Source of the DNA: an uncultured Pseudomonadota bacterium
Lineage (GTDB): Bacteria; Pseudomonadota; Alphaproteobacteria; UBA3830
Assembly: GCA_902796155.1 (NCBI GenBank)
Contig: CADBNZ010000050.1
Span: 1-49,480, forward strand
Direction of reading: 5' to 3'
Length of the DNA: 49,480 nucleotides
Below, one piece after another: positions 817 to 49,131 of the stretch (its first letter is position 1; each line of letters begins with the position of its first letter). The notes below the pieces were generated by a model. The model was given only the letters and a program-made list of their open reading frames with translations. It did no database searches and was not told the DNA's origin. The translations under genes were made by a program, and so were the position numbers.

Positions 817-1287
817 ATGCTCAAAAATTTAAAAATCATTCCGTTAGCTAATCGCAAAGACTTAATTCCAACGGTCACGCAGTGGTATTTGGCGGCTTTT
901 GGACGGAAAGAAACGACAATTGAACAATGCGAAGAAATTTTGCGCAGTCGATTGAACACTGACCGTTTAACTTGTTGTTTTCTCGCATTTATTGAAGACG
1001 AAGTTGTCGGAACTGTTTCGCTGACGGCGAATGATATTCCGACAAAACCTGAACTTAGTCCCTGCGTTACGCATCTTTTTGTTTCTGAAAAATATCGACG
1101 CCAAAATATCGGGCAAAGTTTGGTTGAATACGCAAAGCAAAAATCGAGAAAGATGAATTTTCGGAAAGCATATCTTTATACGACTAACAAAACTATTCAC
1201 AAATGGTACGAAAAACTTGAATGGAAAATTATCGGAGAAGGTATCTCGAATGGTTTTGCAATAAAAATTATGGAATATGAGCTGTAA
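817..1287 (+). CDS. GNAT-family N-acetyltransferase
   Basis: A 156-residue GNAT acetyltransferase, which transfers an acetyl group from acetyl-CoA to an amine. The fold can be followed through FLAFIEDEVVGTVSL (beta 2-3), the beta-4 segment THLFVSEKYRRQNIGQSLVEYA with the Q/R-x-x-G-x-G/S-type CoA pyrophosphate loop (RRQNIGQS), and the C-terminal AYLYTTNKTIHKWYEKLEWK, which is the usual 'YxkxGF' region. It starts 17 bases after the broken acetyltransferase, but no clear Shine-Dalgarno sequence is visible. The substrate cannot be told from sequence. It belongs to an accessory block that looks acquired or decaying. Confidence 0.8.
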   Translation: MLKNLKIIPLANRKDLIPTVTQWYLAAFGRKETTIEQCEEILRSRLNTDRLTCCFLAFIEDEVVGTVSLTANDIPTKPELSPCVTHLFVSEKYRRQNIGQSLVEYAKQKSRKMNFRKAYLYTTNKTIHKWYEKLEWKIIGEGISNGFAIKIMEYEL

Positions 1288-1320
1288 TTTTCGGAGTAGC
1301 AAAGCGACTACCATACTGGA

Positions 1321-1803
1321 CTACAGCCTAACATCTACAACGGCAACATATATCGCGCACATAATAATGCTAATCGCATTTGCAACGAATACCCATTTAT
1401 ATGTCTTTTTAAAATTAAGCTTCAGCATTAACTGGATGATGATACTTTCAATGATTGTATTGATAATTACCGCAAAAAAATATGTTGCAATCCAAACGAC
1501 TATGTGGAACGTAGGCACAAACGCCATTAGCATTGCTACTCCAAGTCCCCCTATTGCTATTATAATATTTCCGATAATTCCTGTCGCCAAGTTCATTACA
1601 ACGGATACCAAAATTGTTTTCCACCAATTTTTTCTTGCAAAGTATTTTACGAATCCCGTTTCAACAAGTAACCCACCAATGATAACCCAAATCGACGATT
1701 TTCCAGCAACAACATATAGAGCTGGCCAAGCAATGTCTGCATTGACATCCGACGTCGCAAATAGCAGTAACGATACAATCAAGTACTTTGCGTAATGAAA
1801 CAT
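1321..1803 (-). CDS. small multi-pass membrane protein, unknown
   Basis: A 160-residue protein with an N-terminal signal-like stretch (YLIVSLLLFATSDVNA, a plausible signal peptidase I site) followed by three or four hydrophobic segments rich in Gly, Ile, Val and Ala (about residues 35-60, 65-95 and 100-125, with a last one near 140-155). The start is supported by a strong GGAGGT just upstream of the ATG at 1803. That is why I prefer this strand over the open frame lying opposite. I do not recognise a family. Its neighbours are two lipoproteins on the same strand, so a role in the cell envelope is possible but unproven. Confidence 0.6.
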   Translation of the reverse strand: MFHYAKYLIVSLLLFATSDVNADIAWPALYVVAGKSSIWVIIGGLLVETGFVKYFARKNWWKTILVSVVMNLATGIIGNIIIAIGGLGVAMLMAFVPTFHIVVWIATYFFAVIINTIIESIIIQLMLKLNFKKTYKWVFVANAISIIMCAIYVAVVDVRL

Positions 1804-1839
1804 AACCTACCTCCACAAAAAATTTTAGCAACTACATCA

Positions 1840-2703
1840 TTAACAATCCAAATCTCCAGGATCAGATTTCCATTGCTTTGTCTTTATAAAATCTTCAAAG
1901 CGTTTTCGTTCTGTTTCAAAATCTGTTGTGCGGATTTTCATATGCTTCACTTTTGTGTACTCAATACAAGTACAAGGAATCTTCAGCTCCTGACATGCGT
2001 CGAAAACAGAGCGAACATTTTTAACACCGTCATCAATAAATATGATTTTTATGATTTTTGAAAACTTTAACTGAGAGCGTTTTAGAAAATGCTTTAGAAT
2101 TACTCCCTTTTCAACTTCACAAGTAAAAATCATTCCATCTTCGAATTTTGGATAACACGTTATACCCCAGTCTTCTATAGTTGTTGGAAATTCTTCAAAA
2201 GTAAAGTTCGGACAATCTTTCCAAGACTTTTTAAAATTAAAACTGAAACTCTCCATTTCAGATTTCCTTAAATCTTCAATCCACTCTATATTGCGAACTT
2301 TGCCCGTCAACATTGCTGTTAGCAAAAGTACTCTTACTCCTTTTGCTTGCAAGTTTTGAATAATATTCGGGAAATTTTTGTTTACTAATTTCATCGGCCA
2401 TTGTTTTCGCGATTCGTCTAATAACTCATTTTTAGCCTCTACTCCTATCTTATCAATTAGGTACTTTTTAATCTTGCGGAAAACTTGAGCGTTTTCTGTT
2501 GATGAGAGAAACAAAACATCTTTGGGCATGATTAAAACTAAGTCGCAATCAAAGATAACTAATGTGTTTTGATCAGCTTCATTTAAGATATTTTCAATGT
2601 AGTTATCATCGTCTATAGAAATAATCTCTGATTTTTCCGTAAAAGAACATGTGGTCAGAACCCCTAAAAGCGAAAACATTAAATACTGAACAATTTTTCG
2701 CAC
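1840..2703 (-). CDS. DUF2608-like HAD-superfamily lipoprotein (copy 2)
   Basis: A 287-residue exported protein resembling the DUF2608 family, a HAD-like group found mainly in Legionella and protist symbionts. I use the GTG at 2703 rather than the upstream ATG at 2733, because it gives the same N-terminus as the neighbouring paralogue and follows a GAGGT five bases away. Residues 1-19 form a lipoprotein-like signal (LLGVLTTC); the Thr before Cys19 is unusual. HAD motif I is IFDCDLVL (Asp52 and Asp54), motif II is VLLLTAM, and motif IV is IIFIDDGVKN. It lies 36 bases downstream of the paralogue on the same strand, so the pair probably form one transcript. The substrate is unknown; acid phosphatase-type activity in the periplasm is an inference. 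Confidence 0.8.
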   Translation of the reverse strand: MRKIVQYLMFSLLGVLTTCSFTEKSEIISIDDDNYIENILNEADQNTLVIFDCDLVLIMPKDVLFLSSTENAQVFRKIKKYLIDKIGVEAKNELLDESRKQWPMKLVNKNFPNIIQNLQAKGVRVLLLTAMLTGKVRNIEWIEDLRKSEMESFSFNFKKSWKDCPNFTFEEFPTTIEDWGITCYPKFEDGMIFTCEVEKGVILKHFLKRSQLKFSKIIKIIFIDDGVKNVRSVFDACQELKIPCTCIEYTKVKHMKIRTTDFETERKRFEDFIKTKQWKSDPGDLDC

Positions 2704-2739
2704 TGAGTACCTCGCAACTTTAACTAGATTCAAACTTTC

Positions 2740-3573
2740 TCAATCTTCAGGATCAGATTTCCACTGTTTCGTCTTTATAAAATCATCAAAACGTTTTCTT
2801 TCTGTTTCAAAATCTACTGTACGGATTTTCATATGTTTCATTTTTGTATATTCGACGCAGGTACAAGGAATTTCTAACTCCTTGCATACCTTAAAAACAG
2901 ACTGAATATTTTTCATTTTATCGTCAATGAATATAATTCTTGAAAATCTCATCGGAACGTGTTTCAAAAAATAACTTAAAACAACACCTTTTTCAATTTT
3001 ACATCCGAAAATCATTCCGTCATCTAATTTCGGATGAAGCTTTATGCCATCTCTAACTTTAGACAGGTCATAAAATATGAAGTTTGGACAATCAAGCCAA
3101 GACTTCTTAAAATCAAAATTAAGATGGGTTAATTCAGCTTTTCTTGTATCTTCAACCCGTTCTATATTGCGCCAATTACCAGCCCAGTGAGACGTTAGCA
3201 AAAGAACCCTTACTCCTTTTGCTTGCAAGTTTTGAATAATATTCGGGAAATTTTTATTCACCAATTTTATCGGATATTGTTTCCGCATTTCGATAAACAG
3301 ATCGTCTGCTGCCTCTTTCCCAATTTTATTTCGTAGATACGATATAATTTTTTTGCAAATTTCAGAGTTGTTTGGGTAATAGAGAGCATCTTTAGGGGCA
3401 ATCAAAACAAAATCACTATCAAAGATAACTAACGTGTTAGGATCGGCTTCTTTCAGAATGTTTTCAACGTATTCATCATTGTTTGTAGAAATAATTTCTG
3501 ATTTTTCTGTAAAAGAGCAAGCTGTTAAAACTCCTAAAACCAAAATTACCAAATACTGAATAATTTTTCGCAT
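2740..3573 (-). CDS. DUF2608-like HAD-superfamily lipoprotein (copy 1)
   Basis: A 277-residue paralogue of the adjacent downstream gene, sharing long blocks such as NFPNIIQNLQAKGVRVLLLT and the near-identical C-terminal KRFDDFIKTKQWKSDPED. The N-terminus is a clean lipoprotein signal with lipobox LTAC at Cys19, and GAGAGAAAGCT lies before the ATG. HAD motifs are present: IFDSDFVL with two Asp residues, VLLLTSH, and IIFIDDKMKN. The family is known from Legionella and amoeba-associated bacteria, with no firm function. The tandem arrangement points to a local duplication followed by divergence, with the middle third (substrate cap region) differing most. Confidence 0.8.
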   Translation of the reverse strand: MRKIIQYLVILVLGVLTACSFTEKSEIISTNNDEYVENILKEADPNTLVIFDSDFVLIAPKDALYYPNNSEICKKIISYLRNKIGKEAADDLFIEMRKQYPIKLVNKNFPNIIQNLQAKGVRVLLLTSHWAGNWRNIERVEDTRKAELTHLNFDFKKSWLDCPNFIFYDLSKVRDGIKLHPKLDDGMIFGCKIEKGVVLSYFLKHVPMRFSRIIFIDDKMKNIQSVFKVCKELEIPCTCVEYTKMKHMKIRTVDFETERKRFDDFIKTKQWKSDPED

Positions 3574-3692
3574 AGCTTTCTCTCAACAACTTCAACCGAT
3601 TGCGAATATCAAAATTTATGTTGATTAGCAACGTCGACTTTACAGGTGTACATATGAACTTTATCATGTACGCAGATTATTAGGACAGATAC

Positions 3693-4166
3693 GTGCTTGA
3701 AGCCATAATAAAAATTCTCGCGCATACTCCGATCTGGGCTTTCGCCGTTTTTGCTTGGCTGATATTTATCGGAATTCGATCAACAAAAAATCGAGAAATA
3801 CGGTTGAACGGTTTGCTGGTTACTCCCGTAACATTTTCGCTTTTCTACATTTACGATCTCACGAAAATCGATATCATCAGTTTAGTATTTCTTTCTGTCG
3901 CATTGGTTTTAATGACGTTAGGGACTACTTATTTTCTACAAAATGAACCAATTGTTCAAAATAAAGACGGAAAATTTATTCGCTCCGGATCTTGCTCTAC
4001 ATTAATTTGCGGAATGGTTACATTTTTTGTGCGATACTTTTGCGAATACAAAAAAGCAACTGTCGGAGATCCTTATCTTGTGCTTAGATTAATATCGTCA
4101 GCAATTATCGGCGGATTTTCTGTCGGAAAAAATCTGAAGTTCTTTATCCACACGAAAAAATCATAA
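3693..4166 (+). CDS. DUF6622-like inner-membrane protein
   Basis: A 157-residue protein with about four predicted membrane helices: residues 5-25 (IKILAHTPIWAFAVFAWLIF), 40-55, 62-82 and 100-115, with a further one near 130-145. The opening 'I-L-x-HTP-x-W' pattern and the overall spacing resemble the DUF6622 membrane family; this assignment is from memory of the family pattern. The start is a GTG at 3693 with AGGAC upstream. No function is known. It stands alone between the lipoprotein pair on the other strand and a recombinase fossil. Confidence 0.6.
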   Translation: MLEAIIKILAHTPIWAFAVFAWLIFIGIRSTKNREIRLNGLLVTPVTFSLFYIYDLTKIDIISLVFLSVALVLMTLGTTYFLQNEPIVQNKDGKFIRSGSCSTLICGMVTFFVRYFCEYKKATVGDPYLVLRLISSAIIGGFSVGKNLKFFIHTKKS

Positions 4167-4249
4167 AAAACGAACAAACTCAACTTATCGTTTGGTAGCA
4201 ATTTTCTCATACTGCTCGGACAGGTGATATTTCCGCGCTTTTTTGGAGT

Positions 4250-8937: not shown

Positions 8938-9661
8938 GGCTCTAGACCAGCATTGAGGTAAGGATGTATGGTATAAGGCATGAGATACAGCAGATTAAAC
9001 AGATATAAGATCAAAAAAATAATTGAATGTTTTAATGAAGACATAACGGCAAGTTCGGCGGCGAAAATTCTGAAGTTAAATCGTAAAACGGTGAACAGCT
9101 ATTACAACGAGTTTTGGAGACTGATATTAGAGCATTCACTGCGAGAACAAGAGAAGGAATTAGGCGAGTTTGAGTTAGATGCAAGCTACTTTGGAGCGCG
9201 ACGAGTCAGAGGTAAACGAGGCCGTGGAGCGGCTGGAAAAACGCCAGTTTTCGGGCTTTTGAAAAGGAACGGGAAGGTATTTGTGACAATCGTCCCGAAC
9301 TGCTCTCGAGAAGAATTAATGCCGATTATTCAGGGAAAAATTCTCGAGGGCTCAACGATTCATACCGATGGCTGGAAAGCCTACGATGGTCTGATTCTCA
9401 ACGGTTACACCCATTACAGAGTATTTCATCATGAAAATGAATTTGCTCGCGGAAAGTCTCATGTTAACGGCATCGAGTGCTTTTGGAGTTATACCAAAAG
9501 ACGCTTATCAAAATTCAACGGTTTAAGCGATAATAAATTCATCTTGCATTTAAAAGAAAGTGAGGCTAGATTTAATCATAGAGATGATGATTTTGCTGCT
9601 TTTGTTGCAAAATTATTCTTTGTAAAAAAGTAAAATCAAAAAAAGATACTGGTCTAGAGCC
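8938..9661 (+). mobile_element. complete IS1595-family insertion sequence (724 bp)
   Basis: The element is bounded by perfect 13-bp terminal inverted repeats, GGCTCTAGACCAG at 8938-8950 and its complement at 9649-9661, and flanked by 8-bp direct repeats ATGAATTT. It carries one intact transposase gene (8980-9633) reading away from the left end. Intact ends, target duplication and gene together indicate a fairly recent transposition. It landed in non-coding DNA between the IS200-type relic and rpmB, so no gene was visibly broken. The size is typical of the small IS1016-like subgroup. Confidence 0.92.
8980..9633 (+). CDS. IS1595-family transposase (ISXO2-like DDE domain)
   Basis: A 217-residue transposase of the IS1016-like branch of the IS1595 family. 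The N-terminal third holds a helix-turn-helix (SAAKILKLNRKTVNSYYNEF). The ISXO2-like catalytic domain begins at ELDASYFGARR (first Asp) and continues with GKTPVFGLLKRNGKV, STIHTDGWKAYDGL (second Asp) and HVNGIECFWSYTKRRL, which holds the third acidic/Asn site of this DDN/E family. The frame is uninterrupted and the gene sits neatly within the inverted repeats. The zinc-ribbon seen at the N-terminus of longer family members is absent, as in the short branch. It is likely functional. Confidence 0.93.
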   Translation: MRYSRLNRYKIKKIIECFNEDITASSAAKILKLNRKTVNSYYNEFWRLILEHSLREQEKELGEFELDASYFGARRVRGKRGRGAAGKTPVFGLLKRNGKVFVTIVPNCSREELMPIIQGKILEGSTIHTDGWKAYDGLILNGYTHYRVFHHENEFARGKSHVNGIECFWSYTKRRLSKFNGLSDNKFILHLKESEARFNHRDDDFAAFVAKLFFVKK

Positions 9662-21155: not shown

Positions 21156-23083
21156 AATGCCTGTCCCAAACTAAGAATAAACTGCATCTTTGAATCTATA
21201 CCCTTTCGACGTCTTATAGGAAATGCAAAATCCGCTCTTATAGGTCCGACGCTCGTAAAATACCTGATTCCAAAACCTACAGAATGGAACCATCTTTTCT
21301 TTTCAATTTGCATATCACTATATCTTGAATGATTTTGAAAAACTTTCGCACCATCGAAGAAAATAACGCCTCCGAAATCTGTAGAAAATTTTCTTCGCAA
21401 TTCCGTATTAAATTCGATCGCCCTTTTTCCTCCCATTACGGTATCGCGACCAATGACCGCATCCGTCGCCATTTGATTCGCATAACCGCGAACAGAAGCC
21501 ATACCTCCGGCATATACTCTTTTATCAAGCGGGATATCGTCTATAGATTTTCCGAAAATCATCTTATTTTCTATATTGAACGCGAAGATTGTTTTTTTCA
21601 AATCATCCAGCGGCAAATTATAAGAAAATCCCGCATTCGCTGTATGTAGATTATTTATTTTCGCATGTCTCAATTTTATATATGAGTAAGACGCAAAAGC
21701 TCTATAGCCTTGAGTCGGATTAAGCATGTCATCGGTTCGGTCTAAAATAAATTCTATTGGAATAATTAAATTTTCGTACCTTTTCCGTTCGTCTTCTTCT
21801 CCAGAAAATTCTTCACAGGAATCAACATAATTTTTTTCTAAGATACATCCGCTGCGAACGGCTGTAAAAAACCATATCGGATAACTAAATAGCGCGGAAA
21901 CTTTATCATTTTTCTTGAAAAATACATTTGTAAGCTCTTGGCGTCTGGAAACAATATACTCCGCTGTGTTGTTTTTTATAAAGACATCTGGTTGAACTAA
22001 AGCTGCTTCAAAAGCGTAATCAGTTCGACGTTCTTTAACTTTTACAGGAGTGCCTTCTACGGTAAATCTCAATTTTTCTCCGCCACCAAAAGCATTGCAA
22101 TTAGTCCAAGAAATTCTTCCGATTATCGATTTCAGTCTTCTATTTGTGTTCGATTTTTTTTCGAAATTCATGCTTCGCATTCCAGAATAAAGTAAACTTA
22201 AATCTACGGTATGTTTTTTATCTTCCTTTACAGAAATCAAAACAGGTGCTTCCGTATCCGTAATTTTCTTTTCATCCGCTTCTACTTTTACTTTTGAAAA
22301 AATTTGAGTCGCATACAAACCATCAGAAGTTTGTTCCAATTTTTCTATGTCGAATAATTCTCCTTCCTGCCATGCGATACGATTTTCTATAAATTTCGGG
22401 TCTATATCCGGAAAAGCATTTATAGTAACCTTTGAAAAAATTACTTTTTTACCGGGATTAATCGTCAGATTCAAAACTGCTTCTTTTAAAGCGTAATTCA
22501 GCCAAACTCTTTTTTCTTTTACTTCAGGATTATAATATCCGTTTTTTTGCAAATCTCGAACCGCTTCTGTTATAAGTTGTTTCATGTCAGAAATAGAAGC
22601 CGTAAGATTCGCGACTTTATCTTTTAATTTTTCGCTGTATTCTTTTTTAAATGCTTCATCTTTATTGGTGTAATTAACGTTGAGTTTTAATTTAAATATT
22701 TGTCCGAAATCGACGAAAATCGTTATAAGCAGTTTATTGTTATCCGAAACGTGGGTTTTATATTTCACGGTAGCGTCATAAAATCCCAAATTATGCGCTT
22801 TCTTATGAATTTCGGATATATCTGCATTGATTCTATCAGAAAGTGCTCGCAAATTGCTAACTCGTTTGTTCTGTTCTGAAAAAGTGCGCAAAGATAAAAT
22901 GTCGTCTTCTATTTCCGAACCTGTAAAAAGATCTCCGATTCTTCCTAAAAGACTGCGTTCCATATCGATTACAAGATCTGCTTGGTAATAGAAATCATGA
23001 AAACCTTCATCGATTGCATACAATGCGGAAAAAAGGAAAAAATAAAGCGAAAATATAATTTTGCGAAAAAATTTCAACGCCAT
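21152..23083 (-). CDS. tamA: outer-membrane translocation protein TamA (BamA/Omp85 family)
   Basis: An Omp85-family barrel working with TamB. The 643 residues start with a signal peptide (FFRKIIFSLYFFLFSALYA), then three POTRA-like domains to about residue 290, and a C-terminal barrel. The conserved VRGY of loop 6 is in GGMASVRGYANQ (about residue 535), and the barrel ends SVGPIRADFAFPI...ILSLGQAF, with the usual terminal aromatic. It is placed directly before tamB and overlaps the end of tgt by 10 bases, so the group is one operon. Confidence 0.93.
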   Translation of the reverse strand: MALKFFRKIIFSLYFFLFSALYAIDEGFHDFYYQADLVIDMERSLLGRIGDLFTGSEIEDDILSLRTFSEQNKRVSNLRALSDRINADISEIHKKAHNLGFYDATVKYKTHVSDNNKLLITIFVDFGQIFKLKLNVNYTNKDEAFKKEYSEKLKDKVANLTASISDMKQLITEAVRDLQKNGYYNPEVKEKRVWLNYALKEAVLNLTINPGKKVIFSKVTINAFPDIDPKFIENRIAWQEGELFDIEKLEQTSDGLYATQIFSKVKVEADEKKITDTEAPVLISVKEDKKHTVDLSLLYSGMRSMNFEKKSNTNRRLKSIIGRISWTNCNAFGGGEKLRFTVEGTPVKVKERRTDYAFEAALVQPDVFIKNNTAEYIVSRRQELTNVFFKKNDKVSALFSYPIWFFTAVRSGCILEKNYVDSCEEFSGEEDERKRYENLIIPIEFILDRTDDMLNPTQGYRAFASYSYIKLRHAKINNLHTANAGFSYNLPLDDLKKTIFAFNIENKMIFGKSIDDIPLDKRVYAGGMASVRGYANQMATDAVIGRDTVMGGKRAIEFNTELRRKFSTDFGGVIFFDGAKVFQNHSRYSDMQIEKKRWFHSVGFGIRYFTSVGPIRADFAFPIRRRKGIDSKMQFILSLGQAF

Positions 23084-24249
23084 TTCCTTTCTACTTCATC
23101 TAATTTCTCTTCAAATATTCCATCGCGAATTTCTTCCATCAATCTATTCATGAATCTTATATTGTGAACAGCGATTGCTTGTATTGCAAGCAGTTCTTTT
23201 GCTTTTAAAAGATAATGCAAATACGCCCTTGAAAAAATTTTACATGTCGAACAATCGCAATCTGTTTCTATCGGATTATCATCTTCGTTATATTCTGATC
23301 GCTTTAAGTTTATATGTTCTCGAGAAGTGCTGTCACGAAAAGCCGCTTTAACCAATGCACCTCCATGGCGTGCTATTCTTGTTGGATGTACGCAATCAAA
23401 CGTATCAATTCCCAATCGAACGCCTCTGAAAATGTCAGCAATTCCGCCGATTCCCAAAAGATGAATAGGCCGACTTATGTCGAGACCATTCATGGCCATT
23501 TCTACAACTTCATACATTTGTTCCTTCGTCGAGCCTAAAGTTCCGCCGATTGCTGTTGCGAAAAACGGATGACTGCTTACAAATTCTGCGCTACGTTTTC
23601 GGAAATCTGCATAAATTCCTCCCTGAACAATTCCGTATAGCGCTTGGGTGAAATCATTTCTTCGTAAAAATTCATCTAAAGAGCGTTTTTCCCATCGATG
23701 AGAACGTTCCATGGATTTTTCTGTGTATTTTTTGTCGCTATGATACGGAGTGCATTCATCGAATGCAACAATAAGATCAGCGCCGAGATCGCATTGTACT
23801 TTTATCGATTTTTCAGGAGTTAATAATTGTTCGCTTCCGTCCCAATAAGATTTAAAAAACGCACCTTCTTCGTTTATTTTCGATAAAGTGGAGATTCCCG
23901 AGCGTCTTCCTTTTATTTCATCAGCGACGGAACCATGTCCGAGACTGAATATTTGAAAACCGCCTGAATCGGTAAACATAGGTCCGTTCCATCCTAAAAA
24001 TTTGTGAAGTCCTCCGCGATTTTTTATATGTTCCGAACCCGGATATGAAAATAAATGATATGTATTTGATAAAATAATTTGAGTTTTGTTTTCAATAAGT
24101 TGTTGCGGTGAAATTCCCTTCACACTTGCTTTTGTTCCGCAAAAAATAAAGGCGGGCGTTTTGATTTTTCCGTGAGGAGTAGTTATTTCACCGACTCGAG
24201 ATTTCTCTTCCGATTGATAAATTATTTTGAAGCCGAAATTTCTATACAT
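23074..24249 (-). CDS. tgt: queuine tRNA-ribosyltransferase
   Basis: It swaps guanine 34 of GUN tRNAs for a queuosine precursor. The 391 residues hold Asp94 in FTDSGGFQIFS, the nucleophile region FDCVHPTRIARHG (Asp285), and the zinc site Cys331, Cys333, Cys336 and His362. The transporter gene for a queuosine precursor lies two bases upstream on the same strand, so precursor uptake and insertion are joined. Whether the substrate is preQ1 or queuine cannot be told from the general motifs. Confidence 0.96.
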   Translation of the reverse strand: MYRNFGFKIIYQSEEKSRVGEITTPHGKIKTPAFIFCGTKASVKGISPQQLIENKTQIILSNTYHLFSYPGSEHIKNRGGLHKFLGWNGPMFTDSGGFQIFSLGHGSVADEIKGRRSGISTLSKINEEGAFFKSYWDGSEQLLTPEKSIKVQCDLGADLIVAFDECTPYHSDKKYTEKSMERSHRWEKRSLDEFLRRNDFTQALYGIVQGGIYADFRKRSAEFVSSHPFFATAIGGTLGSTKEQMYEVVEMAMNGLDISRPIHLLGIGGIADIFRGVRLGIDTFDCVHPTRIARHGGALVKAAFRDSTSREHINLKRSEYNEDDNPIETDCDCSTCKIFSRAYLHYLLKAKELLAIQAIAVHNIRFMNRLMEEIRDGIFEEKLDEVERKWR

Positions 24250-24251
24250 TT

Positions 24252-24986
24252 TTATACATCATTTTCTTTCGAAATAAAATTTCCTGCTAATCTTACAAGA
24301 GGAACACATAATGCAGCAATGACTAATCTTATCATGTACGTAATAAAAATGTACGTTTTCCATAGGAGAGTTAAAGAAATCGGATTTTTTGCAAACACAA
24401 TCCATGCAAAAAAAGAAAATACGAAATTATCGACGAAAGCAGAAATTGCCATAGAAATCATGGAGCGCGCAGACAAATATTTTCCATGCGAAAGTTTTTT
24501 CAACAGCGAATAAATGAAAATATCGGTATATTGCCCTGCGAAATACGCAATCAAACTAGAAATAAAAATACCAAATGCAGGAGAAAAAATTTTTTCTAAT
24601 TCCGAGTGCAAATTGACGCACTCTGAATTGATAACCGCAGGGTGCCAAACCGCTATTTGCATTACTATGACGAAAAATAAATATCCGAAGAAACTGATAT
24701 ACAGACCTTTTTTTGCTGCTTTCGCTCCGTAGTATTCCGTCAATATATTATCCACTGCAAAAGTCGTCGAAAACAATACTGTTCCCAGCGCAATTGGATT
24801 TGAAATCAATGAATATTGTGTGAGTTTCAAAACTTGAATGTTCGAGGTTATAGTTACAATTGCTGAGTATGCATATAAACCATATCTTCCGAAAAATTTC
24901 GCGGCACATAGTATAGTTATGAAACAAATTACTAATGTAAACGTACTTAATAATTCCGGAAGAAAATGAAAAAATTCAATCGCCAT
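24252..24986 (-). CDS. queuosine precursor transporter (YhhQ/DUF165 family)
   Basis: An inner-membrane protein with about six helices of the YhhQ family, which imports preQ0 or preQ1. The ATG at 24986 gives 245 residues; a TTG start at 25022 would add 12. Neither has a clear ribosome site. Family blocks include FSTTFAVDNILTEYYGAKAAKKGLYISF, YFAGQYTDIFIYSLLKKLS and SMAISAFVDNFVFSFFAW, where the acidic and polar residues inside helices are typical. The position two bases before tgt supports the assignment. No queCDE synthesis genes are in the window, consistent with salvage, though they could be elsewhere. Confidence 0.9.
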   Translation of the reverse strand: MAIEFFHFLPELLSTFTLVICFITILCAAKFFGRYGLYAYSAIVTITSNIQVLKLTQYSLISNPIALGTVLFSTTFAVDNILTEYYGAKAAKKGLYISFFGYLFFVIVMQIAVWHPAVINSECVNLHSELEKIFSPAFGIFISSLIAYFAGQYTDIFIYSLLKKLSHGKYLSARSMISMAISAFVDNFVFSFFAWIVFAKNPISLTLLWKTYIFITYMIRLVIAALCVPLVRLAGNFISKENDV

Positions 24987-25120
24987 TTTATTATTTGTGT
25001 TTTTTCTTATATTGTTTCGCAATTTATTTACTGGCTTCAGTCAGCAAGTTTATATATATTATAAAAAATTGAGTTATATAAGAAAATTCTTAAAACTATT
25101 TTGTATTTTTAGAGGAAGAC

Positions 25121-43536: not shown

Positions 43537-44775
43537 TCACGAATACCTGAGAATATCGACAGGATTAAGTCTGCTGGCTTTGCGCGCTGGATAGAGAGTC
43601 GAAACACATGACAGAATCAGTGCGACAGCCACTGTAATCGCCACATCCATTGGACGCAGCAAAGAAGGAAGATGAGTCAGAAAATAGACTTCCGGCGAGA
43701 ATACTTGCGTTCCTGCAATTGCTTCAACAGCGGCTTGTATCTTCTGAATATTCAGTGAAAAGAGCAAGCCAATCACTGTTCCGATTAATGTTCCCGTAAT
43801 TCCTATAGACGCTCCCAATATAAAGAAGATTCTCATTACAGATTTGCGCGCGATACCTATTGTGCGCAAAATCGCGATGTCTTTTTCTTTGTCTTTTACG
43901 AGCATAATCATGCAAGATATAATGTTGAAGCTCGCTACGAGAGTAATCAGTGTCAAAATCAAAAACATAACGTTACGTTCTATCTCAACGGCTTTCATAA
44001 ATGAGCTGTTATTCTTCTGCCAATCGGTTATATAAAAATTGCTGCAGTATTTTTCTTCTATTTTCTTTAAAACGTTAGTAACTTTCATAGGATCGTTCAG
44101 AAAAATCGAAATAGCAGTTACGGAATTATTGATTTTGAATAATTTTTGTGCAATTTCCAGCGGAATAAACGAAACAGAAGTGTCATATTCATGCATTCCT
44201 GATTTAAATGTCGCTGCAAGTTTAAAGGTTTTTTTGCGAGGGACAAATCCAAAACCAGTTTCATCCATTTCAGGAACAATAACGATAACATCGCTGCCTA
44301 TTGTTAGGTTGGCGCGCAAAGCAAGTGAATCCCCCAGCACAATTGAGTCTTTTTCGGAAAAGTCATCAAGATCACCTCTAACAATATTATCCGCAATAAG
44401 ACTTTTTTTTGCTAAATCTTCTTTAGAAATGCCGTGACATAAACTTCCGCGTACTGTTCGAGTGTTTGAAATGAGCGCTTGACGTTCAATCGTCGGAACA
44501 GCTTGCACAACGTGCGGAAAAGACAATACTTGCTTTGTAATTTGTTCATAGTCAGGATTTTCTTGAAGCAAACTCATGGAAATGTGTCCGTTAAATCCAA
44601 TAATCCGCTCAGTAAATTCTTTGCGAAAACCGTTCATTACAGACGTTACGATAATTAAAGTCGCCACTCCTAATGCGATTCCTATAAGCGAAAAAACTCC
44701 GATTGCCGAGATGAATTTTTCACGGCGTTTTGACTTCAAATACCTCCAAGCGATAAGTAATTCTGTCTTAATCAA
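43537..44775 (-). CDS. lolC: lipoprotein-releasing ABC transporter permease (LolC/LolE)
   Basis: The membrane subunit of the LolCDE complex that lifts lipoproteins from the inner membrane. The 412 residues have one N-terminal helix (FISAIGVFSLIGIALGVATLIIVTSVMNGF, about 20-48), a large periplasmic domain (about 49-265), and three C-terminal helices of the FtsX type, with FNIISCMIMLVKDKEKDIAILRTIGIARKSVMRIFFI between them. It ends TLYPARKASRLNPVDILRYS, as in LolC/E. It overlaps the proS stop by four bases and is transcribed with it. The ATPase gene lolD, which normally follows, is absent: the amidase relic comes next. Confidence 0.92.
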   Translation of the reverse strand: MIKTELLIAWRYLKSKRREKFISAIGVFSLIGIALGVATLIIVTSVMNGFRKEFTERIIGFNGHISMSLLQENPDYEQITKQVLSFPHVVQAVPTIERQALISNTRTVRGSLCHGISKEDLAKKSLIADNIVRGDLDDFSEKDSIVLGDSLALRANLTIGSDVIVIVPEMDETGFGFVPRKKTFKLAATFKSGMHEYDTSVSFIPLEIAQKLFKINNSVTAISIFLNDPMKVTNVLKKIEEKYCSNFYITDWQKNNSSFMKAVEIERNVMFLILTLITLVASFNIISCMIMLVKDKEKDIAILRTIGIARKSVMRIFFILGASIGITGTLIGTVIGLLFSLNIQKIQAAVEAIAGTQVFSPEVYFLTHLPSLLRPMDVAITVAVALILSCVSTLYPARKASRLNPVDILRYS

Positions 44776-46700: not shown

Positions 46701-49131
46701 ATGGAGCATTTACAGAATAACAATAATATTGTTTTTACGGACAGAGAAGCTGATATTATTGCGTGCCTCATAAATGGTAATACAGCAAAATCTATAGCTG
46801 ATTTGCTCTCAATCTCTCCTAATACTGCTAATGTTCATATAAGAAATATTATGCAGAAAATAGACGGCGCTTCGAAAAATGATTTGGTAAAATATATCGA
46901 ACAATCTTCTCAATATAAAATTTTTCGAGACCGTTATGATAATTTGATAAGACTCAAGAAATTTTATGAACTTTTGAGAAAATTATCTAAGTTAGCGATT
47001 GAGAAAAAAAGTTGTTGTATAAGATTTAATGAAGAATGTAGTGCATATGTAGAGTTAATTAATTGCTTAAAAACAGCAGGAATTAATACATATATTTATG
47101 ATGAGGAACCAAAATCGAAAGATTGTATTTATATCATTTGTTCAGAGAATCTCTCGAACATATCAGATGTAAAAAATACCATAATATTCACAAAGAATGC
47201 CGGAAAAAATCTTTCACAAAACATAATAGAATATGAGCACAATCTGCCAGATGCTATTTTAAAATGCATCGGAAAAATCTATGCGGAAAATAATGAGATT
47301 CAGTCTTTAATAGCCGCATTTTCTCCGTTTAATTCAGAAAAAGAAAATAAAGGAAACTTAACTCAAATAATTTCCGAACAAAAATTTATAAAACGTAGAA
47401 AATATTTTCTAATCATAAATGCCATTGTAGCTATTAGTTTTATTTCTTTGATTGCTACTAAATTTTTTCATGAAAAAATTTCGGTAAAATCGAATGTTCC
47501 CGTAATTTTTAAAGATGTTTTTTTAGAACGTGCAGATATTGAAGAGAAAATAGATCAGGCATTCGGAAATGGTAAAATAAAAGTTGCGGTTTTGGTTGGG
47601 TACGGTGGAACAGGAAAAACAACTATCGCAAGGCATTATCTTAAGTCGCAAATTAAAACAATATTCTTTGGCTTATACAAAAGGATCAAAGATTTTTATT
47701 CACAGATCTACTAAAGAGATAGGCCAAAAATATTTATTGAATCTTATTCCTGAAAATGAAAGAAATAGAGTTATCGGAAAGATTGTCGAAGCAATGACAC
47801 CATATGAATGCTTGCTATGGTATTCGTATAATAATCAAGAAATGCAACTAAGCTACAAAGAAATAAGCGCGATCATACCCCATTTAGAGAGCTTAAAAAG
47901 CACAATAATTTCAATGCCTTTAGGTGAATCAGAAAAAGAAAAATATATTGTAAGAATTATGTTAGCACTGCTTTATGCATACGTTCCTGAAGCAAATGAA
48001 CAAAAAATGAGAGAGTTGGCAGAGGAGATTATTCAGCGAAACAAGGGCTTTATAAAAGGTTATGATTTGGCTGCGCTATTTCTTGAGCATACATACTGCG
48101 GAATAGGTTATTTATCTGATAAAGATGAGAAATATTTGAAAAGATGTATTGAACTTTGTACACAATTAAAAGCCAATCATTTATTGGCTATCACTTATAT
48201 ATATTTGTCTTTGTATTTTTCTGAAAGAAAAGAAATCGAACTTTACAGACATTTTTTGCGCGAATCGATGAAATTGGCAGAAGAAATAAAAACAAGAATG
48301 TTATTGAATTATCGTTACTGCGAAGTCGCTTTATCTTTATGTAGCTCTAAAAAAGAACTGGAAGATGTTTTGAATTATACTTTGGAAACATTAAAAATAC
48401 TTGGTGTATCTCATTTCTTTTATAAAACAAGTGAAGAGTATGCAGATAAAGGAGCATCAAAGAATTGCATTGCTGCTCTTAGAAGAATCATGGTCAGAAT
48501 ATATAATCGTCTGGAAAAGTACGATGATGCAATTGAAAATTATAAGGAAGCATCTTATTTCTATGCAAAAAGGAGAGAAAAAGGAAACAGAATACCTATA
48601 AAACGAGAAACAGCTTTAGAAATAGAGCATGCGAATACTTTATTACGAATAAATCGAGTTTCGGAAGCGAGGAACAAACTTGAACAGGCAATAAAAGCAA
48701 AAGTGGAACATAGTTATAATCATGGTTTGTTCCAAGCTTTTATTTATAAGGCTGAAGCTGATTTTCGATTAGGAAAGTTAGGTGAAGCTTATGATGATTG
48801 TTTGAATGCTTTGAAATACAAAGAAAAATCTGAATCGAATTTTATGCATTTGCTGAATATGCGTTTGCATTACATAATGGCGATTACAAAATATAAGCTT
48901 GGTGATTCGCGAAAAGCGATTGAATATTTCAAAACATTTGTAGCTCTTGCCAAAATATGGTTTTCAAATTATTCGGATAATAATTCAGGATACGAAAAGA
49001 TCTTGGATGAAAAAATATTTTCCGGATCAACAGATACAAAAATTGAAGATTATTTTAGAGGCAGCTTAAAAATATTCACTGAAATTTACGGAAAAAAACA
49101 TTCGTTTGTAAAAAATTTTGTTAGCTTATAA
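46701..49131 (+). pseudogene. membrane-anchored LuxR-HTH / STAND NTPase / TPR protein, central domain lost
   Basis: The first part (46701-47714) has a LuxR/GerE-type HTH at residues 11-55 (FTDREADIIACLINGNTAKSIADLL, SISPNTANVHIRNIMQKI), an unknown alpha/beta region (about 100-200), a membrane helix at 235-256, then LERADIEEKIDQAF and Walker A GYGGTGKTT (300-308) as in NB-ARC/STAND proteins. The frame then fails. From about 47660 a second frame gives SLAYTKGSKIFIHRSTKEIGQKYLLN and a long helical tail with TPR-like units (YDDAIENYKEASYFYAKRR; LGEAYDDCLNALKYKEKSE) to 49131. Walker B and the rest of the NTPase domain are absent, so an internal deletion with frame change has joined the ends. The gene is probably dead. 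The part before the break could still make an HTH-membrane protein. Confidence 0.75.

Follow-up and report, generated by a model that had tools for sequence, protein, structure and literature searches.

A tandem pair of predicted exported HAD phosphatases of the DUF2608 family in an alphaproteobacterium

Two adjacent paralogous genes of the DUF2608 family (PF11019), here called P1 and P2, lie in the 49,480-nucleotide stretch of alphaproteobacterial DNA that we analyzed (herein referred to as the window), and we think it probable that they encode catalytically competent, Mg-dependent HAD phosphomonoesterases that are exported, tethered to the envelope and cleave phosphate in the periplasm or at the interface between bacterium and host. 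The pair arose by duplication, and its most likely role would be the scavenging of phosphate, or of nucleosides and sugars, from host phosphoesters. Judged from their sequences, the two appear to form a real, well-conserved pair of exported phosphatases that is probably active. An earlier note on this DNA had drawn attention to the pair; its observation is real and is partly confirmed here, with corrections. The genome assembly to which the window belongs (1.07 Mb in 58 contigs, 79% complete) comes from a small bacterium that probably lives inside protists. Both the distribution of DUF2608 and the giant-virus proteins that resemble it in structure merit further study.

Two Adjacent DUF2608 Genes

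P1 precedes P2 on the same (minus) strand with 36 bp between them (table 1), and their products are 66% identical overall. Membership of DUF2608, defined as a Pfam profile score over the curated cut-off of 22.6 bits, holds for both by a wide margin (115 bits for P1 and 106.3 bits for P2), so that the adjacent paralogues reported in the earlier note are confirmed. As read from the sequence, P2 most likely starts at GTG 2703 and not at TTG 2733, the codon picked by the ORF lister: a Shine-Dalgarno-like GAGGT lies five bases from the GTG, and direct reading found no comparable sequence for the TTG, 30 bp upstream.

Table 1. Features of the DUF2608 gene pair and its downstream neighbor (positions in the window; motif counts refer to the 31-sequence alignment and the 130-domain survey; pLDDT values are means).
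Feature	Positions	Strand	Basis
P1, predicted DUF2608/HAD lipoprotein, 277 aa, ATG start	2740..3573	-	ORF; PF11019 E 5.3e-33; AlphaFold2 pLDDT 94.0, HAD fold
P2, DUF2608/HAD paralogue, 287 aa, GTG start	1840..2703	-	ORF; PF11019 E 2.3e-30; AlphaFold2 pLDDT 92.5, HAD fold
Shine-Dalgarno-like GAGGT ahead of P2 GTG	2709..2713	-	direct sequence reading
Small membrane protein, 36 bp downstream of P2	1321..1803	-	ORF; DUF4396 E 4.7e-4, 21 bits, under cut-off 27
P1 signal peptide with terminal lipobox LTAC (Cys19)	3517..3573	-	sequence; Lgt, LspA, LolCE encoded
P2 signal peptide with irregular terminal lipobox LTTC (Cys19)	2647..2703	-	sequence
P1 HAD motif I DSD (D52, D54)	3412..3420	-	family alignment
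P2 HAD motif I DCD (D52, D54)	2542..2550	-	family alignment
P1 insert at C1 cap position (residues 58-104, two helices)	3262..3402	-	model; 47% identity to P2
P1 motif II Thr127	3193..3195	-	invariant T in 31/31; T or S in 130/130
P2 motif II Thr129	2317..2319	-	alignment
P1 motif III Lys195	2989..2991	-	invariant 31/31; 127/130
P2 motif III Lys199	2107..2109	-	alignment
P1 motif IV D217-D218	2920..2925	-	invariant 31/31; 119/130 and 116/130
P2 motif IV D224-D225	2029..2034	-	alignment

No terminator-like site was found in positions 1200-3750 of the window, and P1, P2 and the small membrane protein possibly share a transcript. The membrane protein gene was not seen in the flanks of two relatives (L059 and L062); a conserved operon was considered and rejected, these flanks having no visible neighbors in common with the window or with each other, and genomic context thus gives no substrate.

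Several other features were recorded in passing. An acetyltransferase-like gene (by eye) at 189-800 has an apparent stop at 575 with similar coding beyond, and its first part has no Pfam match at E<=0.1. An IS1595-type transposase (E 2.6e-26) lies at 8980-9633, and a queuosine precursor transporter (TIGR00697) at 24252-25022 adjoins a gene at 23074-24249 that, by its sequence, we take to be a tRNA-guanine transglycosylase. A LuxR-type DNA-binding regulator at 46701-49131 is spread over two overlapping frames and looks frameshifted; it contains what by eye is a P-loop-like stretch, and its second part weakly resembles TPR-type regulators. A further DUF2608 copy in the same genome (L056; G000:C52:8416-9185) likewise consists of two overlapping frames, of 164 and 128 aa, and is either a frameshifted gene or an assembly error.

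Catalytic Residues and Predicted Fold

All four HAD motifs (DxD, T/S, K and DD) are present in both P1 and P2. The nucleophile pair (DCD or DSD), motif II and the DD motif had already been noticed, and the motif III lysine (K195 in P1, K199 in P2), which the earlier note did not mention, is in place as well. The residues of motifs II, III and IV are among the eight invariant columns of the 31-sequence alignment. A broader survey covered 130 domains that remained after removal of duplicates (174 to 145) and of 15 domains lacking a motif I or IV column; drawn from relatives, named genomes and selected Chlamydiota, Dependentiae, Gamma- and Alphaproteobacteria, it consists mostly of higher-scoring rows and leans to good matches. 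Within this survey the nucleophile Asp, far from being lost in most orthologues, stands in 125/130 domains, the residues of motifs II to IV are kept at the frequencies listed in table 1, and 125/130 domains combine the nucleophile Asp with T/S, K and one or both acidic residues of motif IV.

The Asp at +2, the general acid, is kept in 114/130 domains and replaced in 16/130, so not every DUF2608 member need be a phosphatase. These 16 replacements, together with the five domains that lack the nucleophile, would suit non-catalytic binding proteins built on a HAD scaffold, but P1 and P2 keep every catalytic residue, the motif II, III and IV residues are invariant across the 31 sequences and the motif residues persist in most of the 130 domains, and for this pair we regard a purely binding function as very improbable. 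A catalytic reading is the one we prefer. From the roles that these motifs play in HAD enzymes generally, Asp52 would attack the phosphate of a phosphomonoester with Asp54 serving as acid/base, Thr127 and Lys195 would hold the phospho-intermediate and Asp217/218 would bind Mg.

AlphaFold2 models built from the 31-row alignment predict a HAD fold for both proteins, with a beta-alpha core into which two helices (67-84 and 86-99 in P1) are inserted between motifs I and II, at the C1-cap position. The substrate pocket may be shaped by this small helical insert and by the strands after motif II. The clear HAD ranking among solved structures comes from VIA, a re-alignment of Foldseek's PDB list whose rows are HAD enzymes by title or by what is known of them. 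For P1 the top row is 8a0m, a multienzyme of capsule synthesis (Z 12.3, rmsd 3.6, 157 aligned), of which the matched part is presumably its HAD phosphatase domain; other rows include MDP-1 (1u7p; Z 10.7, rmsd 3.0, 130 aligned), a plant vegetative storage protein (4fyp; Z 10.1, rmsd 3.4, 157 aligned), the class C acid phosphatase of P. multocida (3pct; Z 10.0, rmsd 3.8, 158 aligned), Legionella Lem4 (6cdw; Z 9.8, rmsd 2.8, 135 aligned) and lipoprotein e(P4) (3et4; Z 9.2, rmsd 3.6, 155 aligned). P2 gives similar HAD rows, and with Z values of about 9-12 for the models the matches are too near each other to choose a HAD subfamily for either protein.

The top rank of the capsule-synthesis multienzyme, along with the fusion of one DUF2608 member to a weak Kdo/APH-like kinase region, speaks for a self-directed envelope enzyme whose targets would be phosphates in the bacterium's own periplasm (on the lipid carrier, LPS or nucleotide-sugar intermediates). 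Against this, numerous HAD matches score almost as high as the multienzyme, and the distribution described below fits a general envelope task poorly; we judge this reading unlikely.

Foldseek by itself was weaker, with a single PDB match for P1 at E<=0.001 (9m7e; E 2.4e-5, TM 0.38), and its further rows mix HAD chains with unrelated folds such as pantothenate synthetases. By sequence, P1 comes no closer to a solved structure than E 0.36; the 31-row profile reaches E 0.011 with a small periplasmic protein that is not a HAD enzyme, and HAD chains appear at E of at least 0.15. All 31 members of the alignment match DUF2608, and weak matches to general HAD profiles occur among them (TIGR01681, HAD-IIIC, in 25; TIGR01509 in 22; PF00702 in 20; PF03767 in 8). 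In the Pfam search at E<=1, PF00702 and PF03767 matched neither protein of the pair, and P2 weakly matches TIGR01662 (HAD-IIIA; E 0.05).

Predicted Export and Membrane Attachment

The genome encodes the lipoprotein machinery Lgt, LspA and LolCE (LolCE at 43537-44775 of the window). The lipobox of P1 is regular, although the protein reaches only E 0.4, under the cut-off, against Pfam LPAM_1; that of P2 has Thr at -1 instead of G/A/S, which makes lipid attachment of P2 less certain. As far as these signals can be read, P1 is very likely tethered to the envelope by a lipid, in one membrane or the other, and P2 probably is. An enzyme so anchored might split host metabolites into phosphate and a residue fit for import, or alter host phosphates.

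Across the family, 99/134 members have an N-terminal signal of some kind. A home-made rule, which visibly misfiles some rows (L099 as no signal, L067 as lipobox), sorts the 134 N-termini into 61 that are signal-peptide-like without a lipobox, 32 with a lipobox, 6 with an irregular Cys (P2 included), 33 with no signal and 2 internal. In one group of similar relatives (L040-L045) the protein starts directly at the DUF2608 domain. Export of DUF2608 proteins thus appears common but not universal, and lipid anchoring seems to be one version of it and not a family trait. The description of the pair as exported lipoproteins therefore holds well for P1 and less so for P2, and does not extend to the family, in which 32/134 carry a lipobox.

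Some members carry additional regions. A Bdellovibrio protein (L092:3998-5149) is fused to a DUF952 domain (E 7.1e-14), and one from the Chlamydiota sample (L113:211-1458) to a GNAT acetyltransferase domain (E 1.3e-13); the C-terminal region of a Holosporales protein (L074:3965-5641) weakly resembles Kdo/APH/protein kinases (E about 0.02, under cut-offs). Two Holosporaceae proteins (L063, at 3700-4176, and L087) have C-terminal extensions of ~200 residues that are alike by eye, and a Pfam scan of 159 aa of the L063 extension gave no match at E<=0.1.

Origin and Divergence of the Pair

In the family tree, P1 and P2 are sister branches (support 99/96), and their branch adjoins one protein each from four relatives of another genus of the same family (L059-L062; support 100/100), to which they are 39-42% identical. 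The genomes of these relatives (G021, G027, G029 and G031) have 2-3 DUF2608 matches each and, at the locus examined, one gene only of the P1/P2 branch, from which it follows that the pair arose by duplication. It is an ordinary, lineage-specific duplication. Adjacent or fused DUF2608 copies are found elsewhere too (G011:C35, G292:C2, G1208:C57 and G1151:C8, and within one frame in G449:C57 and G1195:C16).

Identity between P1 and P2 is uneven along the proteins. It amounts to 65% over residues 1-20, 73% over 21-46 and 82% over 47-57, falls to 47% in the insert (58-104), rises to 96% over 105-128, and is 42% over 129-154, 54% over 155-191, 52% over 192-219, 67% over 220-243 and 81% over 244-277 (88% for the last segment in the 31-row alignment). 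The earlier note had seen nearly identical ends around a differing center; this is only partly right, for the most identical block, of 24 residues, lies mid-protein. In the two of the four relatives compared (L059 and L062), identity to the pair is 38-62% over residues 105-128 and 6-15% over 244-277. The 96% block contains a 47-nt run identical between the genes (codons about 107-122), a length reached in 0/5000 codon permutations (mean 19.9), but the longest run of identical synonymous codons does not clearly exceed expectation (p 0.056). Patchy gene conversion between P1 and P2 is possible on this sequence evidence.

Diversification of the substrate-binding cap after duplication had been suggested, and the evidence for it proved weak. 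The insert at the cap position is indeed more divergent than the remainder (23/49 identical residues vs 158/238; Fisher p 0.014). Divergence is just as high, however, in the stretch that follows motif II, part of which is core (48/96 vs 133/191; p 0.0018). Positive selection as the cause of cap diversification is not supported, dN being lower than dS in 18/18 windows.

A Family Concentrated in Chlamydiota and Dependentiae

Counted at E<=1e-3 with the seed genomes included, DUF2608 occurs in 32/60 of the window genome's own relatives, in 105/151 Chlamydiota (the phylum of the Parachlamydiales seed genome), 52/86 Dependentiae (49 over the cut-off), 31/385 Alphaproteobacteria (30 over the cut-off), 20/369 Gammaproteobacteria (the class of the Francisellaceae seed; 19 over the cut-off) and 1/194 Verrucomicrobiota, where the Puniceicoccales seed is the sole positive; it is found in 0/14 named control genomes. 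When the genomes chosen for having DUF2608 are set aside, the counts are 104/150 for Chlamydiota, 50/84 for Dependentiae, 19/368 for Gammaproteobacteria and 0/193 for Verrucomicrobiota.

The family had been described as concentrated in bacteria of amoebae and protists. The figures for Chlamydiota and Dependentiae bear this out in part, with the intracellular bias resting largely on these two whole phyla, which represent few independent lineages; the family is not limited to amoebae. Indeed, 23 of the 105 positive Chlamydiota genomes measure 1.0-1.3 Mb, the size of animal Chlamydia, and animal pathogens probably carry DUF2608 too. When small genome size is taken to indicate an intracellular lifestyle, a weak test for which 20 negatives were listed per class, positives are skewed toward genomes of <=2.6 Mb in Alphaproteobacteria (30/31 vs 11/20 among the negatives listed; p 4e-4) and show no such skew in Gammaproteobacteria (10/20 vs 11/20 among the negatives listed; Fisher's test run with 10/20, p 1). 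It is this host-associated concentration, together with the absence of the family from the 193 other sampled Verrucomicrobiota, that fits poorly with trimming of the bacterium's own envelope phosphates.

The Puniceicoccales proteins (L078-L081) are separated from the rest by a long branch and group with the proteobacterial sequences across a split supported at 97/98; they likely reflect gene transfer, on a tree whose root is midpoint only.

Within the open-licence literature searched, DUF2608 is not mentioned, PF11019 appears only in Plasmodium or malaria contexts (one through Plasmodium gene names), and nothing was found on Chlamydia HAD proteins with a signal peptide in connection with amoebae. 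The Holosporales are described as obligate associates of eukaryotes, mostly protists (PMC11909080), and a search of that review for phosphatases and lipoproteins found neither. Present in ~70% of the sampled Chlamydiota and ~60% of the sampled Dependentiae, DUF2608 keeps its catalytic residues and often bears an export signal, which makes it a testable candidate for a common enzyme of intracellular life.

Giant-Virus Proteins of Similar Structure

Tupanvirus, Pithovirus and Yasminevirus infect amoebae or other protists, and each encodes a protein to which P1 and P2 give long structural matches in Foldseek searches of a viral structure library. For P1 the best match is A0A6N1NU56 of Tupanvirus soda lake (E 7.3e-12, TM 0.66/0.75), with A0A481YN40 of Pithovirus LCDPAC01 (E 8.7e-12, TM 0.57/0.69, 20% identity) and A0A5K0UB50 of Yasminevirus (E 2.7e-9, TM 0.61/0.54) close behind; for P2 the same three give E 5.0e-13, 7.5e-13 and 5.0e-9. 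The next viral match stands at E 2.5e-5 for P1 and 1.0e-5 for P2. All three outscore the best solved structure in the comparison made for P1 (E 2.4e-5), and although E-values obtained with two different libraries, viral and PDB, should be compared with caution, the TM scores (0.66 vs 0.38) point the same way. The three viral proteins therefore appear, on these models, to share more with P1 and P2 than the general HAD core.

Pattern scans of viral contigs matched patterns and confirmed no relative of DUF2608, 50,697 phage records searched by tblastn with a single Chlamydiota member instead of P1 gave nothing, PHROGs gave nothing for P1, so the link to giant viruses is a structural one. Nothing on the Yasminevirus secreted protein was found in the open-licence literature searched. 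Among plasmids, P1 had a single hit, to a Vibrio record of 1.7 Mb, with 27% identity across 55% of the P1 sequence.

We tentatively entertain a wider hypothesis, as possible but still some way from probable, in which DUF2608 is an exported host-exploitation phosphatase common to giant viruses of protists and to unrelated bacteria that live inside the same kind of host (Chlamydiota, Dependentiae, Holosporales and others). The family would in part have been exchanged among them, and it would act on host phosphoesters in the occupied cell or vacuole. Should the viral matches be confirmed by sequence, the same enzyme would be present in viruses of similar hosts.

A more specific proposal is that the enzyme is released, or displayed on the cell surface, and tunes the host cell by removing phosphate from its proteins or lipids. 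The concentration in Chlamydiota and Dependentiae and the structural relatives in giant viruses suit such a host-directed phosphatase, as do the Legionella effectors Lem4 and Ceg4 among the fold matches and the secreted HAD phosphatase of Mycoplasma bovis, which reportedly damps MAPK signalling (PMC11019793). Yet Lem4 and Ceg4 share the general fold only (Z 9.3-9.8, a level that many metabolic enzymes reach as well), and a lipid anchor would keep the window proteins on the bacterium; we hold direct tuning of the host to be unlikely for this pair and continue to favor scavenging.

Relation to Known Systems

P1 and P2 belong to PF11019, a known family without assigned function, both scoring >80 bits over its cut-off; they differ from many of its members, which have a plain signal peptide or none, in forming a tandem duplicate with lipid-anchor signals. 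The three giant-virus proteins resemble them over long structural alignments, but identity in these alignments is 15-20%, the proteins are unnamed or called "putative secreted protein", and the likeness is one of structure. MbovP0725 of M. bovis resembles the predicted products of the pair by description, as a HAD phosphatase that a host-associated bacterium secretes (PMC11019793).

Among HAD groups, the HAD-IIIC or MDP-1-type phosphatases are close in that 25/31 members weakly match TIGR01681 and in the Z score of 1u7p, whereas DUF2608 models add the two-helix insert between motifs I and II, and P1 and P2 add an export signal. The class C (HAD-IIIB) acid phosphatases, including e(P4) and 3pct, resemble P1 and P2 in having a HAD core and in being exported, and 8/31 DUF2608 members weakly match PF03767; P1 and P2 differ in having no PF03767 match, and the fold comparison (Z 9.2-10.0) barely sets class C apart from many other HAD groups. 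Lipoprotein e(P4) is lipid-anchored and is said to scavenge phosphate, or nucleosides and sugars, from host phosphoesters, and by analogy with it scavenging from host phosphoesters would be the most likely role of P1 and P2.
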